A stretch of 35,540 bases of DNA, from assembly GCA_030836185.1 (NCBI GenBank), contig JAURQH010000003.1, positions 1-35,540 on the forward strand, written 5' to 3'. The first letter of the stretch is position 1. The number at the start of each line of letters is the position of its first letter. The notes beneath the pieces were generated by a model that searched no databases, was not told the origin of the DNA, and was given only the letters and a program-made list of their open reading frames with translations. Both the position numbers and the translations under genes were made by a program. The stretch comes from Planctomycetota bacterium. GTDB lineage: Bacteria > Planctomycetota > Planctomycetia > Planctomycetales > Planctomycetaceae. Shown one piece after another: positions 15,928-35,540 of this stretch.

Positions 15928-17220
15928 TTATTTCTTCTCAATGGCCCAGAGCGAGTCGAATGTTCGCAGGTAAATGCGACCATTGGAAATCACCGGCGAC
16001 GCCGACATGTCTTCTCCCACATCATTTTGTGAAGCAATTTCAAATTCACGTCCCGCCTTGATGACGGAAACCTTACCATCGCGTCCGGTGAGATAGACAT
16101 GTCCATCCGCATAAACGGGTGAGGCACGGTGGCGAATGCGATGAACGCGTTCATAATAAAGTTCGTCGCCCGTTTTGGCATCCATGGCGATCAAGTCACC
16201 ATTTTCTCGGCAGAGGTAAACGATGCCATCAACAATGAGTGGTGAAGAAACGTCGGGAGTGTCGCGATCACGTTTCCAGTGATAGGCTGAGACATCAGAT
16301 GTGATATTCCCCTTGCCATCTGGCTTGAGTCCCAAGACTGGTCCTTTCTTGGCCGAAGGGACAACGATGATTCCGGGAGCCATCGCCGGTGATGCGACGA
16401 GACGCAGAAACTTGTTGTACTTGTCTTTGGGGTTGAGTCCTCCGCAGCGCCACAGTTCGTTACCGGTTTCCAGGTCATGGGCGATGACATAGTCTGCACC
16501 GTGAGTTAACAAAAATTGTTGCCGGTCATCTTCGTAGAGGATTGGGGAAGCATAGGAATGGACGTTTTCAGCGAAGGCATCACTCTTGCGATAATGTTTC
16601 CAGATTTCCTTGCCGGTCGTTTTATCGAGAGCAATCACCCAAGCCGGTTGCGGCTCTTCGTTCCATTCTCCGTGAATCAGTTGGAACAACAATTTGTTAC
16701 CGGTCAGGACGGGCGAGGATGTGAATCCAAATTGAATGTCAAATTTTCCGTACCGGTCTTGAAGGTTGGTCTTCCAGACGACGTTACCTTCAAAGTCGAA
16801 GCAGAACAGATCTCCCGTTCCGATGAATCCCCAGACGTGTTTGCCATCAGTGACGGGAGAGGGAGCCGCAGGATTGTTTCCTTCGTCGCCCCGTGCTTTG
16901 TTGGTTCCACTGCCGAGTTTGTGACGCCAGAGTTCTTTGCCCTTTGTGTTGAGCGCGATCAGGTAGGCATCTTTTCCCTCTCCCGAATTATCCATCGAGG
17001 TCAAGAAGATGTGATCTTCCCAGACGACGGGTGTCGAACCTGCGGGGCCGGGCAGAGGAGTCTTCCAGGCGACGTTTTTATCTGCCGACCATTTAACGGG
17101 AACATTTTTCTCAGTAGAAATACCGTTATTGAGGGGGCCTCGCCAGTTGGGCCAGTTTTCTGCATGGAGGGAATTGGTGGCGAGCAGTAATCCGCAGAGC
17201 AGGGCAGTCAATCTCAACAT
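15928..17220 (-). CDS. PQQ-like beta-propeller repeat protein
   Basis: A 430-residue exported protein with an N-terminal signal peptide ending near LHAENWPNWRG. The mature part is built of beta-propeller blades of the PQQ-dehydrogenase-like repeat: NVAWKTPLPGPAGSTPVVW, LIALNTKGKELWRHKLG, VIALDKTTGKEIWKH, LETGNELWRCGG and LIAMDAKTGDELYYERV, each with the W-x-x-x-L/D-x-x-T-G-x-x-x-W pattern. The family is abundant in planctomycetes and is not necessarily PQQ-binding; no quinoprotein catalytic set is visible. The ATG at 17220 has AAGGATG about 10 bases upstream. Likely periplasmic, function unknown. Confidence 0.88.
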   Translation of the reverse strand: MLRLTALLCGLLLATNSLHAENWPNWRGPLNNGISTEKNVPVKWSADKNVAWKTPLPGPAGSTPVVWEDHIFLTSMDNSGEGKDAYLIALNTKGKELWRHKLGSGTNKARGDEGNNPAAPSPVTDGKHVWGFIGTGDLFCFDFEGNVVWKTNLQDRYGKFDIQFGFTSSPVLTGNKLLFQLIHGEWNEEPQPAWVIALDKTTGKEIWKHYRKSDAFAENVHSYASPILYEDDRQQFLLTHGADYVIAHDLETGNELWRCGGLNPKDKYNKFLRLVASPAMAPGIIVVPSAKKGPVLGLKPDGKGNITSDVSAYHWKRDRDTPDVSSPLIVDGIVYLCRENGDLIAMDAKTGDELYYERVHRIRHRASPVYADGHVYLTGRDGKVSVIKAGREFEIASQNDVGEDMSASPVISNGRIYLRTFDSLWAIEKK

Positions 17221-28926: not shown

Positions 28927-29248
28927 TTGGAAACGCAATTCATTGACGAAGTACGGAGAAAATCGTTCGGACTGAAGATGATGGCTGCAAGATCACTCAC
29001 TCGTTCACAAAGAGGATCAACTGGCTTTCACTCTTCTCTTGAGATACCAGGGATGGACTGATTGGCAGGGACGCCGCTTATTTTTCAGCCGAACGTTTTC
29101 TCTTTTTTGAATCAAGCAGCAAAACATGGATGGTGGTCAACAAGGCTGTTGATCTCTTGGTTACGGATGGTGACTTAGCTGCCTGGTTGTGACATACGGT
29201 TTGGTGATGTGTGCTGACGGATTGGCTGCATTAAATTAAACGTCACGG

Positions 29249-29272
29249 AGTCCCGCTTGCGGGGCTTTTTTT
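29249..29272 (+). terminator. Strong intrinsic terminator
   Basis: AGTCCCGC and GCGGGGCT pair around a very short loop and are followed by seven or eight U residues. It lies 322 bases past the MraZ-like stop with no annotated gene directly before it. Confidence 0.85.
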
Positions 29273-29331
29273 ATGCGCAAAACTTGAGATCTTGAGCAGT
29301 CCCGTTGAGATCGGCTGCTTGAATCTCCCCC

Positions 29332-29425
29332 GTAGCTGAACTCGCAAGAGTTCAGAAGGACCGACGCTGTTCTTGTATTTCGTCTGAATTCTTGCGAATC
29401 CAGCTACCTGTTCGTTGCTTCATCG
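29332..29425. repeat. Dispersed inverted-repeat element, copy 2
   Basis: Nearly identical to the element at 18722: the same outer 30 bases, the same GTCT-AATTCTTGCGAATCCAGCTAC end (29407) and a shared TCGTTGCTTCATCG trailer, with differences concentrated in the centre. The 76-base hairpin part has the same length in both copies. Confidence 0.85.
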
Positions 29426-29635
29426 ATTGATTGGCGGTTAGTTTATGTCAATCTCTTTCTGCTTCTCGGCCTTTGCTTTGCGTATACTATTCAGTCTACC
29501 AAAGTTATCAGGTAGGCAGGGCGATTTGCTGGCACACCGCTCTCTTATGAGCCCAACCACTCTTGTTGTAAATACCGTGTTCTACTAGGATTCCGGCCAA
29601 TGACCGGGTGACCTCAAGGACAAGATTTCCCCTTT

Positions 29636-30838
29636 ATGCGGATACGCCTTAGTTTTATCAAACATATGCTCTGGGCCGTGGTGTGGTTGATCTGTTTGAT
29701 CTGCTGCATTGAGGTGGGGCTTCGCGTGCATACATTTCTGGCAGACAAGCCGATCAGCGAGAATGCGGAAATCGAGCGTGTCGCCTGTCATCAGGTTCAT
29801 CATCATCTCAAGCCGCTCGAACAAGTTGAGTTTCAACATCCCGATACGGGGCATCAGTTCTCCGAACGCTTAAATTCTTTTGGGTTACGCGGTCCCGAAC
29901 CATCCCTGGATAAGTCGAGTGATGTGATTCGCATTCTCTGTCTTGGTGATGAAATGACGTTTGGTCCGGGGTTAACATCTCAAGAGTTGTTTTCTTCACA
30001 GCTTCAAGGCTTATTGAAAGATTACCTGCCTAAAAAACTGGAAGTGATCAATGCGGGAGTCCCCGGGTACTGTCCGCTGTTATCGCTCCTACAATATCGA
30101 CATCGATTGCGGGCTCTCAATCCTGATGTGATTGTGCTCACTTTTGAAATGGGAGATGTTGCCGACGATTATCTGGTGCGGGGTTTTACATCGCACGATG
30201 AAAATGGAATCCCGCTCGGTTGTCGCAATCCGTTGTTGGGAAATGAGTCGGAGCTTAAGAAAATTCAGAATCATTTTGTCACAATGAAATGGCTGAAGGC
30301 GCAATCCGAACATTGGCGGACCGAATCGACCTTCGATTCCCTCGATCAAATCGATCATCCCGTTGGCCGGTATGCCTGGATACGTGACAACCCCGTTGAT
30401 TGGGGGCCTTATTTGCAAAATGCTTTAAAGCCAATCGAAAAACTCGGTCTCCTCGGGAGAGAACAGGGGGCGTTGGTTGTGTTTTCTGTGTTACCGGCTC
30501 CTTGGCAGATCTCGTCTGAAGCAACCAGTGATCCCGCAACACGCAAAAAGTACGGCGTCGCACCGGGTGTCGTTTATTCGAATCGGGAACCGTTTCAGAA
30601 GCTGGCCACTTTCGCCGAAGAGTCCGGTTTGGCGTTTCTTGACAACTCGAATGACTTTGCAGAGCTTGGTAATCCTGAGGAGTTGTATTTGCAGACTGAG
30701 CCGTGGCTATCGGCGCGAGGGCAAGAAGTTTATGCGACTTTGTTGGCCCGTTATTTGTTCCCGCGTTTACAATATCGATTTCAACCGCAGCCACCAGCGA
30801 ATCACATTCTGCCTGCGGGTGGCGTTCAGCCGCAGTGA
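29636..30838 (+). CDS. SGNH/GDSL-fold protein lacking catalytic residues
   Basis: A 400-residue protein with an N-terminal membrane anchor (MLWAVVWLICLICCIEVGL) and an SGNH-hydrolase-like domain. Block I, normally GDSxTxG, reads LCLGDEMTFGPG (102-112), so the nucleophile Ser is Glu106. The Gly block INAGVPGYC (138-146) and a VLTFEMGDVADD segment are kept. The C-terminal DxxHLS block reads TEPWLS (354-359), losing both Asp and His. It is therefore unlikely to be an esterase and may act as a binding or scaffold protein in envelope glycan work. Its 3' end overlaps the convergent hydrolase gene by 13 bases. Confidence 0.8.
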   Translation: MRIRLSFIKHMLWAVVWLICLICCIEVGLRVHTFLADKPISENAEIERVACHQVHHHLKPLEQVEFQHPDTGHQFSERLNSFGLRGPEPSLDKSSDVIRILCLGDEMTFGPGLTSQELFSSQLQGLLKDYLPKKLEVINAGVPGYCPLLSLLQYRHRLRALNPDVIVLTFEMGDVADDYLVRGFTSHDENGIPLGCRNPLLGNESELKKIQNHFVTMKWLKAQSEHWRTESTFDSLDQIDHPVGRYAWIRDNPVDWGPYLQNALKPIEKLGLLGREQGALVVFSVLPAPWQISSEATSDPATRKKYGVAPGVVYSNREPFQKLATFAEESGLAFLDNSNDFAELGNPEELYLQTEPWLSARGQEVYATLLARYLFPRLQYRFQPQPPANHILPAGGVQPQ

Positions 30839-31530
30839 GAGTTCTGAAACGCTCGTATTGCGTTCCAACATCCATTCGGGTGTGTCTGTAGCAATAAATG
30901 TGGCCCGTCGATGGCGTGATGCTGTATGTCAGGTCGGAGTTTTTGAATCAGCTTGAGTGCCGATTGGGGAACGAGTCGGTCTTTGCTGGCTTGCAGGTAG
31001 AGCAGGTGAGTCGGGCAATCTCGTAAGGATCTTGTCGCATCACAGGAAAAGATCATTTGCAGGCGTTGTGAGAGAGTATGAGTTGGAACAGATCGCAACA
31101 CACTTCTCAGCAGGTCAACAAGTGAACTGTCTGCACTCCATCCAGTCATCAACCATCGTAGGGCAAAACTCGGCATCGGTAATTTGGCCAGTAATCTCCA
31201 AGGCAGCCACTTGAGCCATCTCGGTCGTGGTGAGCGAATAAACGAAGCCACCAAGATTACTCCCATCAGTCCTTTCGGTTGACGACAGGCAATCTCTAAC
31301 GCCAATGGTCCCGAGAAAGATTCTCCCAGCAACAGAAACGGTTCGTCTGAGGGAAGCTGTGAGATCAATTCCTCGGCCAAATCTGGGTAAGTGAAGCATT
31401 GCGTTTTCGGCAGCGGAACAACGACCGAATCAAACTCCGACGGGCATTGTTCAATCAGCGGATCAAACAGTTTCCCAGTGCCGTCCATACCGGGCAGGAG
31501 GACGATTTTGAAAAGGCGGGCGTTCTTCAT
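30826..31530 (-). CDS. Alpha/beta hydrolase
   Basis: A 234-residue hydrolase of the alpha/beta fold. LLPGMDGTGKLF near the N-terminus supplies the oxyanion region; GESFSG (69-74) holds the nucleophile Ser71; ASKDRLVP supplies the acid Asp and DGPHLLLQ the His. The core therefore looks catalytically complete. The substrate is unknown; esterase or acyltransferase-type activity is typical. ATG 31530 is chosen because it gives a normal fold start; an in-frame ATG at 31656 would add 42 residues with no recognisable domain. The gene is convergent with, and overlaps by 13 bases, the SGNH-like gene. Confidence 0.85.
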   Translation of the reverse strand: MKNARLFKIVLLPGMDGTGKLFDPLIEQCPSEFDSVVVPLPKTQCFTYPDLAEELISQLPSDEPFLLLGESFSGPLALEIACRQPKGLMGVILVASFIRSPRPRWLKWLPWRLLAKLPMPSFALRWLMTGWSADSSLVDLLRSVLRSVPTHTLSQRLQMIFSCDATRSLRDCPTHLLYLQASKDRLVPQSALKLIQKLRPDIQHHAIDGPHLLLQTHPNGCWNAIRAFQNSHCG

Positions 31531-31700
31531 GATTGACTCGACTCTATCTATGGTTACCCAACCGCGAAGTCGCGCAGTTTGATAACGCACATTCTCGACA
31601 AACTTGATCGCGTCTTCAATTTCTGAGTTGATCCGAGGAGTTGCCAGAGTGAACATGGAATCTTATTTGATCTAGAACCTCCGCTCGCAAGGACACTGTT

Positions 31701-33008
31701 GTGAAGTCAAGTAAATCAAGAACGCTCGGCATTTGGATGATCTTGATCGGCATTGTTGTGCTTGCCATCTTCTCACAAAAGGATGAGGAACTCGATTCCG
31801 ACGAGATTTTTTCTCATTATGAAAAAGTCGGGTGGTCAAGATTTACAGAGGATCTGGGATCCAAAAAAATTACCCAAATCATCGTCTACTCAGATGTCGG
31901 ACTATTGCTGGCATTCACAACTGATCAAAAATATTACCGTACCGATGATTTACTCGACACACTCAACGATGAAGAGCAAGCATTGTTGGACGATGTCGAG
32001 GATGTGATGCACTTATCTGCAACCGAGATGTCGGAGGCGCCATCCGGTTCTGATGCTGTGGGGAATTTGCTTAAATATATTTTGATCATCGGGGTTGCGT
32101 TGTGGGCAATGATCTTCTTCCTCAAAAAGTTCGGCGGTCGGGGGATGGACAATGTCCTCTCGCTCCGACATAGCAAAGCCAGGTTCTTTACCGATTACCA
32201 AACGGTTAAATTCTCGGATGTGGGTGGTTGTGAGGACGCCAAAGAAGAACTGGGCGATGTGGTTGATTTTCTCAGTAACCCGGATCGCTGGGTCGATGCT
32301 TACAGCATCCAGAAATATTGTGTCGCAACATTGCTGATTGTGTCGGCAACAAGCAGCTACGCGGGAATCGTTGACTTCGAATCGATTCCCACGGGAAGTC
32401 TGAGCGAGGGACTCACTATTTCCAACCAATACTTAGCCTCTCAGGGAATGTCATTCCGACTCAAAGGTGGAGGAACTCCTACACTTGTGCAGCGCGGTGA
32501 TCAGGGCATCGGAGCTGCTGCTTTCGTGAGTAGCTCAAAAAATGTCGCAGACTCACTCAATGACGAAAATGTGGGTGGTCAGTTCTTTTTGGCAGATGAC
32601 CTGACGAACGGCAATATCCCCCCGACATTGATCATCGATTTGAACGATCCGATGGCGAATTTTTCGATGAGTATTTATGACATCGAGTCACGTGCAGATG
32701 GCACATATGAAGCTTGGAGGTTGAGCTTTTATGATCTGAGTGACAATCTGATCAACTTCATGGATATCGATGTCAATTCTCCAATGGCTTCGGATGGTGT
32801 GGCGACTCCCGTGAGTTTTGGGACCGTGGGGGCCATGATGAGCCGCGTGGAATTGGAATACACGGGGACTGCCGTTGCACCTGGTATTGGATGGGACGAC
32901 TTTGCCACTTCTGCCGTGGCCGTTCCCGAACCGGGTTCAATGGTCTTATTGAGTTGCTTGGCGGGTTTTTGGAGAATTCGACGCCGAAAACAAAGTGTCG
33001 CGTCGTAA
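31701..33008 (+). CDS. Chimera: truncated FtsH N-terminus fused to PEP-CTERM protein
   Basis: One 435-residue frame from GTG 31701 (AGGA 8 bases upstream). Residues 1-200 match the FtsH protease N-terminal half: helix (9-24), FtsH-extracellular-like segment, second helix (124-141), then FSDVGGCEDAKEELGDVVDFLSNPDRW, which precedes Walker A in FtsH. The ATPase and protease domains are missing. At about residue 201 the frame continues as an exported protein: QKYCVATLLIVSATSSYAG (a signal peptide), a beta-rich domain, and a PEP-CTERM tail (VPEPG, hydrophobic stretch, RIRRRK). Normal FtsH is about 600-700 residues. It looks like a deletion fusion of two genes; product function and export are doubtful. 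Confidence 0.85.
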   Translation: MKSSKSRTLGIWMILIGIVVLAIFSQKDEELDSDEIFSHYEKVGWSRFTEDLGSKKITQIIVYSDVGLLLAFTTDQKYYRTDDLLDTLNDEEQALLDDVEDVMHLSATEMSEAPSGSDAVGNLLKYILIIGVALWAMIFFLKKFGGRGMDNVLSLRHSKARFFTDYQTVKFSDVGGCEDAKEELGDVVDFLSNPDRWVDAYSIQKYCVATLLIVSATSSYAGIVDFESIPTGSLSEGLTISNQYLASQGMSFRLKGGGTPTLVQRGDQGIGAAAFVSSSKNVADSLNDENVGGQFFLADDLTNGNIPPTLIIDLNDPMANFSMSIYDIESRADGTYEAWRLSFYDLSDNLINFMDIDVNSPMASDGVATPVSFGTVGAMMSRVELEYTGTAVAPGIGWDDFATSAVAVPEPGSMVLLSCLAGFWRIRRRKQSVAS

Positions 33009-33209
33009 GCTTGCGAATCATTGCCATTTCTCTTCTCAACTCGAATGGAATGGCTTAAATCGTGGATGCAGTTGTGACTCTTTGGGGAGGATACAGCATG
33101 TGTCACTAAGGCGAGAGGAAGGCAGCTCAGAAAAAAGGTTGATCTGCATGTCACTTCTCGGCAGGATGAATCTCTAAGACGCTCTCGTCGAACCCAAGGA
33201 GATCTCTCA

Positions 33210-34694
33210 ATGCTGACCTTATTCCGACTGGTGAGCTTCACAGTTTTATTCACCGTTCACCTTGTTTCTTCACTCAAGGCTGCTGACTGGCCGCAGTTTC
33301 GAGGGCACAACAGCACGGGAATCGCGCAAGAAGATCAGCCTCTCCCCGAATCATTTTCGGACACGGAGAATGTACTCTGGTCAGCGAAAGTGGGTGACGG
33401 AATCGGATGTCCGGTTGTTGCCGATGGTCGTGTTTTTACGAGTGGAATGGTTGACGATCAGACTCTCGGATTGTTTTGCTACGAAGCCGAAACCGGCAAA
33501 GAATTATGGCGAAGAGAATGGGCGACGCCGGATTTAATGGAAGTTCACGCCACAAATTCTCACGCCAGCACAACTCCCGCCGCCGATGCCGAGCGTGTCT
33601 ATTTTTACTTCAAGACTCTGGGAATGATGGCTCTCGATGCCAAGTCGGGCGAGCTTGTCTGGCAACAGAAACTGCCACGCCCATTCTTTGTTTTCAAGTG
33701 GGGAGCGGGAATGTCTCCTGTCCTGTACGAAGACAAAGTGATCTTCTGCCAGGATGATGATCTCTCTCCGGTGATCTATGCTTTTGACAAGAAAACTGGA
33801 GATGTTATCTGGAAAGAACAACGCCGCGAAATGGCCGTCAATTATTCACATCCGGTCATTTGCCAAACTGATCGTGGTGCTGAATTAATCGTGGCGGGAA
33901 CGGGAAAGTTGATCGGATACGATCCTCAAACCGGTGAACGGCTTTGGTATGCGAAAACTCTGTTGCGGAACATTAAAACCACTCCTGTCTGTCGGGACGG
34001 CATCATTTACATTTCCTTACAAAGTGGTGGAATCGCCAATCAATGGTTGGTGTCCGTCGATCAGGCTGATACGGGCAACAGTGACGGCAAGGTGTCGAAA
34101 ATGGAGATTCAGGCGTTCGTCGGGAAAGACAAAGTGCCCGACGATTTCTATGAGCGGACCTTCGATCAAGGTGATGAAAATGGAGATGGATTGCTGGAAG
34201 GTGTCGAACTCGACAAAGCGTTCCTGTTTCCCGATAACTTTGCGGGAGCCAAGTTTGGAGATAAAAATCCCGCCGATGAATACATCTTGGCGGTGCGCGG
34301 AGGTGGTCGAGGTGAAGTGACCGAATCGCACGTGCTCTGGAAGCATCGTACCAAGCATACGGATCACATTGTTTCTCCGTTCGTCATGGGTGATCGAATG
34401 TTGCTGGTGAAAGGGGGCGGAGTGACGACGTTGTTTGATCTTGCCACCGGCGATGCGATTCGTCCGCCGAAAAGAATACCGAATGCGAGTCAGTATTTTG
34501 CTTCACCCATTTACGGTGACGGAAAAATCTTTATTGCTGGTGAGAACGGTCGCATTATTGTCCTGAAAAATGATTCAGAACTGACCGTGTTATCAAAGAA
34601 TGATATGGGAGAAGGAATTGTCGCGACGCCCGCGATTTCTGAAGGTCGGTTATTTGTGCGGACGCGCACGAAACTCTTCTCCATCGGAGAGTGA
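33210..34694 (+). CDS. PQQ-like beta-propeller protein with inserted EF-hands
   Basis: A 494-residue exported protein (signal peptide ending near LKAADWPQFRG). Propeller blades carry the repeat pattern, for example YEAETGKELWRREW, LDAKSGELVWQQKL, FDKKTGDVIWKEQ and YDPQTGERLWYAK. Between blades, residues about 284-340 hold a degenerate calcium loop (T288-E299) and a canonical EF-hand loop, DENGDGLLEGVE (322-333), so calcium binding is probable. The propeller then resumes (HVLWKHRTK, LFDLATGDAI). No quinone-enzyme catalytic set is seen. Compared with the propeller protein at 15928 it adds the EF-hand insert. Likely periplasmic; function unknown. Confidence 0.88.
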   Translation: MLTLFRLVSFTVLFTVHLVSSLKAADWPQFRGHNSTGIAQEDQPLPESFSDTENVLWSAKVGDGIGCPVVADGRVFTSGMVDDQTLGLFCYEAETGKELWRREWATPDLMEVHATNSHASTTPAADAERVYFYFKTLGMMALDAKSGELVWQQKLPRPFFVFKWGAGMSPVLYEDKVIFCQDDDLSPVIYAFDKKTGDVIWKEQRREMAVNYSHPVICQTDRGAELIVAGTGKLIGYDPQTGERLWYAKTLLRNIKTTPVCRDGIIYISLQSGGIANQWLVSVDQADTGNSDGKVSKMEIQAFVGKDKVPDDFYERTFDQGDENGDGLLEGVELDKAFLFPDNFAGAKFGDKNPADEYILAVRGGGRGEVTESHVLWKHRTKHTDHIVSPFVMGDRMLLVKGGGVTTLFDLATGDAIRPPKRIPNASQYFASPIYGDGKIFIAGENGRIIVLKNDSELTVLSKNDMGEGIVATPAISEGRLFVRTRTKLFSIGE

Positions 34695-34980
34695 CCGGTT
34701 ACCTCCGCTCATGCTCTACAAAGTGAACCGCCAGTCTTCTCGCCGCTGCGTGAGTCAATTCTTCACCGCTGGACCAGCCAGCGATCTTGTCATTTCTCCG
34801 CGTCCCTGCGAACTCTGCGGTTTGAACTCATTCCCCTGCCAACTACCTTCGGCGATTATCATTACTCCCACCCTTTGCGTTTCTTTCCGTCTTTGCGTCA
34901 AAATAATAATCTCTCGCAATACTCGTCTTGCCAAACGCGATCTACCAGAGTTAGCGTTCGTGGTTCTTGGTGATTTTCAT

Positions 34981-35079
34981 AAACCGTGGGCTAGCGCCCA
35001 GCGGCTGATCGGGCTGAAGAGCAATTTGGCTTCGCTGCTTGTTCGATTTCATCAGCCGGAACGCGCTAGCGTCCGGTTT
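34981..35079. repeat. REP-like inverted repeat
   Basis: Left arm 34981-35009 and right arm 35051-35079 (29 bases each) are imperfect reverse complements that share AAACCG, GCTAGCGC and CGGCTGAT, around a 41-base loop. Palindromic extragenic elements of this kind, built around GCTAGCGC, are familiar in planctomycete genomes. Confidence 0.85.
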
Positions 35080-35265
35080 TAGACGAGCACTCCAGTTCGA
35101 TCTTTGGCAATTTGAACGTCATGACGACATCAACATAGCCCTACTGCGCAAGCAGTTGGGGCAGGTTCAAGTGTCATTGCGTGTCGCAGGTGATTTGTAC
35201 GAGCCCGCAGTTCTCGCGCACTGCGGCTATGCCATCGCGTTTGACGAGCACGGTGAGTATTGCTT

Positions 35266-35341
35266 GGGTGGCTGTGGATGACCGTCAGGTCACCCACAGA
35301 ATCAGAAAAGCTGGGGGCTCACTGCGTTCGTCCCTAGCCAC
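35266..35341. repeat. Nested hairpin element
   Basis: The inner hairpin at 35272-35299 has CTGTGG/CCACAG and TGACC/GGTCA pairs around a GTCA loop with one mismatch. An outer GTGGCT (35268) can pair with AGCCAC (35336-35341). No coding frame. Probably another dispersed repeat. Confidence 0.6.
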
Positions 35342-35478
35342 ACCTGAGATTCAGCCAGTCGCGTGTTCATCAATGACGACCACTGCAACGTGAGAAAGAG
35401 AGCGATCTCGCGTGACGTGGAAAATGCGCACCCACAGAAAGTGACACTCACTCATACAATGAAGATCGACGTAAGGTG

Positions 35479-35540
35479 ATGAGCATCAACAAGTTGCTCA
35501 AGAGTACACAAGATACGGAATCAAGATTCGGGAAGATTTG
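35479..35540 (+). CDS. Possible 5' end of a gene cut by the window edge
   Basis: ATG at 35479 opens a frame of 20 codons (MSINKLLKSTQDTESRFGKI) without a stop to the edge. AAGG lies only 2-3 bases upstream, which is too close for a good ribosome binding site. It may equally be chance. Confidence 0.25.
   Translation, partial: MSINKLLKSTQDTESRFGKI

Follow-up and report, generated by a model that had tools for sequence, protein, structure and literature searches.

An in-frame join of an FtsH-like ATPase N-terminus and a PEP-CTERM protein in a planctomycete draft genome

The N-terminal domains of FtsH oligomerise. PEP-CTERM proteins have been described (Haft et al., 2006; PMC1569441) as exported proteins whose signal peptide is N-terminal in nearly all cases. 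In a further paper (PMC12078418) PEP-CTERM appears in the reference list only, and a literature search for FtsH, PEP-CTERM and fusion together found no paper. Here an open frame that joins the two kinds of protein was analysed in a planctomycete contig of 35,540 nucleotides (C49). The whole contig is referred to as the window. The draft genome to which it belongs comprises 107 contigs with a total of 5.16 Mb and is 97.94% complete.

The fusion frame and its halves

A single open frame of 435 codons lies at this place, made up as follows.

31701..33008, plus strand: fusion ORF, GTG start, 435 aa; upstream in-frame stop at 31668
31701..32300, plus strand: front half, residues 1-200, FtsH-like N-terminus (TIGR01241 match, alignment, tree)
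32300..32301, plus strand: junction between Ala200, the last FtsH-like codon, and Tyr201, the first codon of the PEP-type signal region (two alignments)
32301..33008, plus strand: back half, residues 201-435, a PEP-CTERM protein that has no start codon of its own (TIGR02595, homologues, alignment)
32922..32993, plus strand: PEP-CTERM sorting motif with basic tail, residues 408-431 (TIGR02595)

The front half is laid out as helix 1, extracytoplasmic loop, helix 2 and the start of an AAA module ahead of Walker A. TIGR01241 was matched over residues 32-198 (model positions 22-188, E 1.1e-14) with 54 bits, far under the cut-off of 600 bits for a whole FtsH. PF06480 (FtsH_ext) was matched under its cut-off over residues 11-88 (E 4.6e-4), and a PDB search with the front half returned FtsH (best E 3.3e-9). 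Alignment with four FtsH-like proteins stops at the invariant Ala200, and the residues leading to Walker A are absent. Walker A, Walker B, the AAA lid and M41 (HExxH) were not found in the ORF by Pfam, NCBIfam or alignment.

Alignment of the back half with PEP-type relatives extends over the signal peptide. One of these has only MRYN ahead of the fusion's first aligned residues, which places the join at, or a few codons from, the lost start of the exported protein. The sorting motif was matched by TIGR02595 with E 4.1e-4 and 21 bits, over the cut-off of 16; PF07589 was under its cut-off (E 0.0053). A search of the PDB against a back-half profile gave nothing up to E 0.1. Matches to this half were found in 8 of 296 other genomes, and a paralogue (38%) on contig C35 of the same genome contains an in-frame stop.

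L085 4050-4763, minus strand: paralogue of the back half in the own genome, with TAA in frame at codon 43

That paralogue adjoins another gene with a PEP-CTERM-like tail (by eye). In the genome G177 a domain like the exported half lies inside an open frame of 9028 aa (L084 4946-5515, minus strand).

The base composition is alike across the junction, with GC contents of 0.459 (front) and 0.499 (back), and of 0.532 vs 0.523 at third positions. The 120 bases of the junction region share no exact stretch longer than 13 bases with the small part of the own genome that was compared, and only short, imperfect repeats were found around the junction. RNA elements were absent from 31000-35540 at gathering score, and defence-system models gave no match to the fusion.

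The first-pass annotation had described an in-frame join of two genes near base 32300, with residues 1-200 following FtsH to just before Walker A and neither half complete as its parent gene. Frame, junction and parentage of the halves bear this out, and the two genes are unrelated. The joint is placed exactly at 32300/32301, the FtsH-like character of the first 200 residues agrees with both TIGR01241 and the alignment, and what is missing is everything from Walker A onward in front and the start codon in the back. The same annotation called the back half beta-rich. It is drawn mostly as strands in AlphaFold single-sequence models (n = 2), but their mean pLDDT values (35.8 and 38.2) denote low confidence, so this description was not established.

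Predicted membrane topology and maturation

Segments relevant to insertion and processing, located by hydropathy, and a candidate start codon are the following.

31725..31775, plus strand: hydrophobic segment 1, about residues 9-25, ends approximate (Kyte-Doolittle 17-residue maximum 2.73 over residues 4-29)
32070..32123, plus strand: hydrophobic segment 2, about residues 124-141, ends approximate (Kyte-Doolittle maximum 2.31 over residues 117-146)
32259..32261, plus strand: candidate start, an in-frame GTG (residue 187) that is the closest start codon ahead of the complete signal peptide
32319..32363, plus strand: core of the signal peptide, residues 207-221, with the likely cleavage site between S-Y-A and Gly222 (hydropathy; predicted site)

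The signal-like core (residues 207-226) has a modest hydropathy maximum of 1.71; it aligns with the signal peptides of relatives, yet is internal. The C-terminal helix (404-422) is weak (1.48). The extracytoplasmic loop contains another stretch of weak hydrophobicity at 56-73. Loop charges of -17 and -18 outside, and of +3, -1 (10 K/R) and +4 inside, fit the order N-in, out, in, out, C-in. Since two helices precede the signal peptide, its orientation is the normal one, N-in/C-out. The odd topology that had been expected of such a product was not borne out, given the two helices ahead and the positive charges on the cytoplasmic side.

Signal peptidase follows an AXA-type rule, and on this basis the site was placed between SYA and Gly222. 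SYA|G is a plausible signal-peptidase site, and cleavage there could release an ordinary PEP-CTERM protein from the fusion. The exosortase model PF09721 had no match in the own draft genome and matched in 1 of 14 control genomes, a weak negative; no enzyme for the last maturation step was thus found with it.

The ATPase lineage and its M50 neighbour

In other genomes the front half is best matched (30-33% identity) by four FtsH-like ATPases, of genomes G023, G177, G151 and G097, that have no M41 domain. The matches ranked below these lie in frames of 681-767 aa. The M41-less proteins are about 490-507 aa long (open frames 503-525 aa) and have an FtsH N-terminus and an AAA module. HExGH is absent from the three that are rows of the tree, and Pfam gave no M41 match in the three that were scanned; each of the four was thus checked at least once, G023 without a Pfam scan and G177 outside the tree, where it failed the motif filter. 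In two scanned with NCBIfam, TIGR01241 was matched to position 398 of 598 only (420 and 409 bits vs 600). The scanned proteins received no Pfam or NCBIfam name more specific than AAA/FtsH. Their C-terminal domain is conserved, with a QLAEPTGRA motif, and the G177 protein has a sub-threshold Hfq_1 match. The AAA module of two scanned members resembles IetA in defence-system models, which is taken to be general AAA likeness.

The motifs VGGC..AK and DFL..P.RW are common to the front half and the M41-less group, VGGC standing where FtsH has DVAG. A tree of the matching span (31 rows) groups the fusion with the three M41-less rows at 100/98, apart from 27 HExGH rows; the fusion forms a long branch (2.01), a placement of the kind that the tree program warns is unsure. 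By motifs and tree, the front half is assigned to a separate M41-less FtsH-like ATPase, and not to the FtsH protease gene that had been named as donor. A housekeeping ftsH was ruled out by the signature and the tree, and both full FtsH frames of the genome (696 and 685 aa, with HECGH and HEAGH, on contigs C12 and C68) are still in place.

A search of the own genome with the whole G023 ATPase gave hits to the fusion, to both FtsH genes and to three further AAA genes (28-32%) without the motifs of the M41-less group. No place for the missing ATPase core was thus found in the draft assembly, and a search for its remains within the window gave only chance-level hits (E 0.66 and 0.70).

An M50-type gene with HEWAH lies directly 3' of the ATPase, on the same strand and about 20-200 bases away, in all four carriers examined.

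L078 7385-9509: M41-less ATPase and M50-type neighbours
L079 6783-8917, minus strand: M41-less ATPase and M50-type neighbours
L080 8602-10975: M41-less ATPase and M50-type neighbours
L081 201-2374: M41-less ATPase and M50-type neighbours

Pfam assigned the HEWAH gene to M50 in the two cases scanned, and the other two are related at 50-52%. The M50 query found relatives adjoining the ATPase in 3/3 other carriers. It had no match in the own draft genome, and no M50 remains were found in the window at E up to 1. A literature search for an FtsH-like/M50 pair recognised none from titles and abstract starts.

We suggest, tentatively and as the less probable view, that a two-gene system for membrane proteolysis, undescribed as far as these literature searches go, left the fusion as its remnant. 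In that system a ring of protease-less FtsH-type ATPase would feed a separate M50 intramembrane protease. Here the system would have been dismantled, and its start and anchor taken over by a PEP-CTERM protein that signal peptidase would release as from a polyprotein. The fusion itself is an ordinary evolutionary event, of modest interest. It matters more indirectly, in that tracing the front half uncovered the ATPase/M50 neighbour pair. The pair has been little noticed, is the better lead and deserves its own study; it makes testable whether an FtsH-type ring can serve a protease in trans.

Origin of the join and relation to known systems

No match row over both halves was found when the whole protein was searched in 58 other genomes and in 391 others across the phylum, or when each half was searched in 296 other genomes (the three sets overlap). 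The front-half search was run at E up to 1e-9 and the back-half search with at most nine candidates scored per genome; the phylum-wide search was run at E up to 1e-9 with at most four. An exact-seed scan of one genome per species (84,980 species), which reaches close relatives only and from which the own genome may be missing, confirmed a single locus, a fragment of FtsH (residues 169-197). In two congeners (G001 and G002) the back half had no match at E 1e-3 and the front half none at E 1e-9; their lower-significance matches lie in frames of 685-747 aa. A fused architecture conserved in many species was rejected on the lack of a both-halves row in any other genome searched. G177 and G270 match both halves, on different contigs, and the front-half match of G270 is an FtsH with HExGH. 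Among the genomes matching both halves none had the two parent genes side by side.

The surroundings were compared with the congeners.

31537..33114, no strand: interval without DNA match in the corresponding loci of G002; flanking blocks on separate G002 contigs
34874-34958 and 35358-35540 of the window, and L088 14484-14535: dispersed repeat, about 180 bases and longer

On the left, the matches in G002 are on contig C73, at 89% for 29001-30939 and 79% for 31360-31536; on that contig a DUF1501-like gene (by eye) follows after a piece of the dispersed repeat, and the alpha/beta hydrolase gene is a remnant (L088 14819-15109) with about 420 bases missing and an unrecognisable 5' end. On the right, 33115-34695 matches contig C66 of G002 (84%), where a gene that by eye resembles a short-chain dehydrogenase lies upstream. 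G001 has yet another arrangement at the corresponding loci. The fusion thus sits in an interval of about 1.6 kb that is variable within the genus, and synteny changes at 31536 and 33115, away from base 32300. Searches of the congeners' loci for back-half remains gave only E 0.31 and 0.71. The dispersed repeat has dozens of matches across the own genome, nine or more of which fall within 1 kb of where a contig starts, and it is present in G002 as well; it may break the assembly and mediate rearrangements. BamB/PQQ-like propeller paralogues (window 15928-17220 and 33210-34694) are also numerous, with at least 50 matches to one query in the own genome, several per gene.

The explanation that we consider probable is an illegitimate join, specific to this lineage, by which the ATPase was disabled and its start and anchor went to the exported protein. 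The join would have linked ATPase codon 200 to the first codons of a PEP-CTERM gene, most likely removing the ATPase core and the neighbouring M50 gene. That this was a simple deletion rather than another rearrangement is our inference, since no genome shows the parental gene order that would demonstrate it. In a draft of this contig number and completeness the ATPase core and the M50 gene could also be unassembled. The missing exosortase match, the modest signal core, the weak C-terminal helix, the stretch at 56-73 and the long branch of the fusion in the tree also count against this reading. The ATPase remainder, without Walker A, Walker B or arginine finger, would be unable to work. The exported protein, its own start lost, would be made from the GTG start and promoter of the ATPase gene; the upstream hydrolase gene is divergent and 44 bases off, so the fusion's promoter is probably the former ATPase promoter. 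The two FtsH-type helices would insert first and the old signal peptide would follow N-in/C-out. Signal peptidase would cut after SYA221, so that a normal PEP-CTERM protein would stay anchored through the C-terminal helix and an inert two-helix stub would be left over. The join has the look of a single accident after which the exported protein could still mature normally. It offers a single clean case in which such a protein could gain a new start and two helices with its topology still workable.

An assembly chimera, with two loci of the same or a co-sampled genome joined at 32300 and the frame open by luck, is rather unlikely. It would fit a draft in so many contigs, the lack of matches to either half in the two congeners, the position of the interval where G002 synteny switches contig, and the occurrence of the dispersed repeat at the end of C49 and within a kilobase of the start of several contigs. 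Against it, the two halves share phase and orientation, the joint falls exactly where the signal peptide begins, the matches to G002 end at 31536 and resume at 33115 instead of 32300, and the remainder of the ATPase was not found elsewhere in the assembly. The similar base composition on both sides, and the lack of an exact share over 13 bases in the part of the genome compared, also speak against it. Somewhat less doubtful is a real join whose frame is a decaying pseudogene, not expressed or with a degraded product. The TAA in the own-genome paralogue and the hydrolase remnant of G002 indicate gene decay in this family and region, and the fusion is present in one genome only among those searched; yet no stop interrupts the 435 codons, and alignment of the FtsH-like half still extends from its start as far as residue 200.

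Two further alternatives were considered. A functional new fusion would keep the FtsH-type anchor as a useful part, for example by holding the exported domain near FtsH hexamers or by setting its membrane delivery. The open frame, the workable topology and the oligomerisation of FtsH N-domains agree with this, but no other genome searched has such a fusion, and the likely signal-peptidase site just past the joint would part the halves; we consider it improbable. Equally hard to credit is an internal start, by which the exported protein would begin at GTG 32259 and the front half would be just a leader. That codon is in frame and 34 residues ahead of the likely cleavage site. However, no clear ribosome-binding site was seen for it by eye and the n-region would be acidic, and the hydrophobic core contains the start codons at residues 211 and 214. 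A further in-frame GTG is at residue 174.

With the FtsH protease, the fusion shares two helices, an extracytoplasmic loop and the start of the AAA module in residues 1-200; it differs in being without Walker A and B, AAA lid and M41, and is kin of the M41-less side branch. With the M41-less ATPases of G023, G151, G097 and G177 it shares the VGGC and P.RW signature, whereas their full AAA module, C-terminal domain and adjacent M50 gene have no counterpart in it. With PEP-CTERM proteins, as PMC1569441 describes them, it shares the exported domain, PEP motif, helix and basic tail, and its internal signal-like core aligns with the signal peptides of relatives; it differs from them by two extra membrane helices ahead of the signal peptide.
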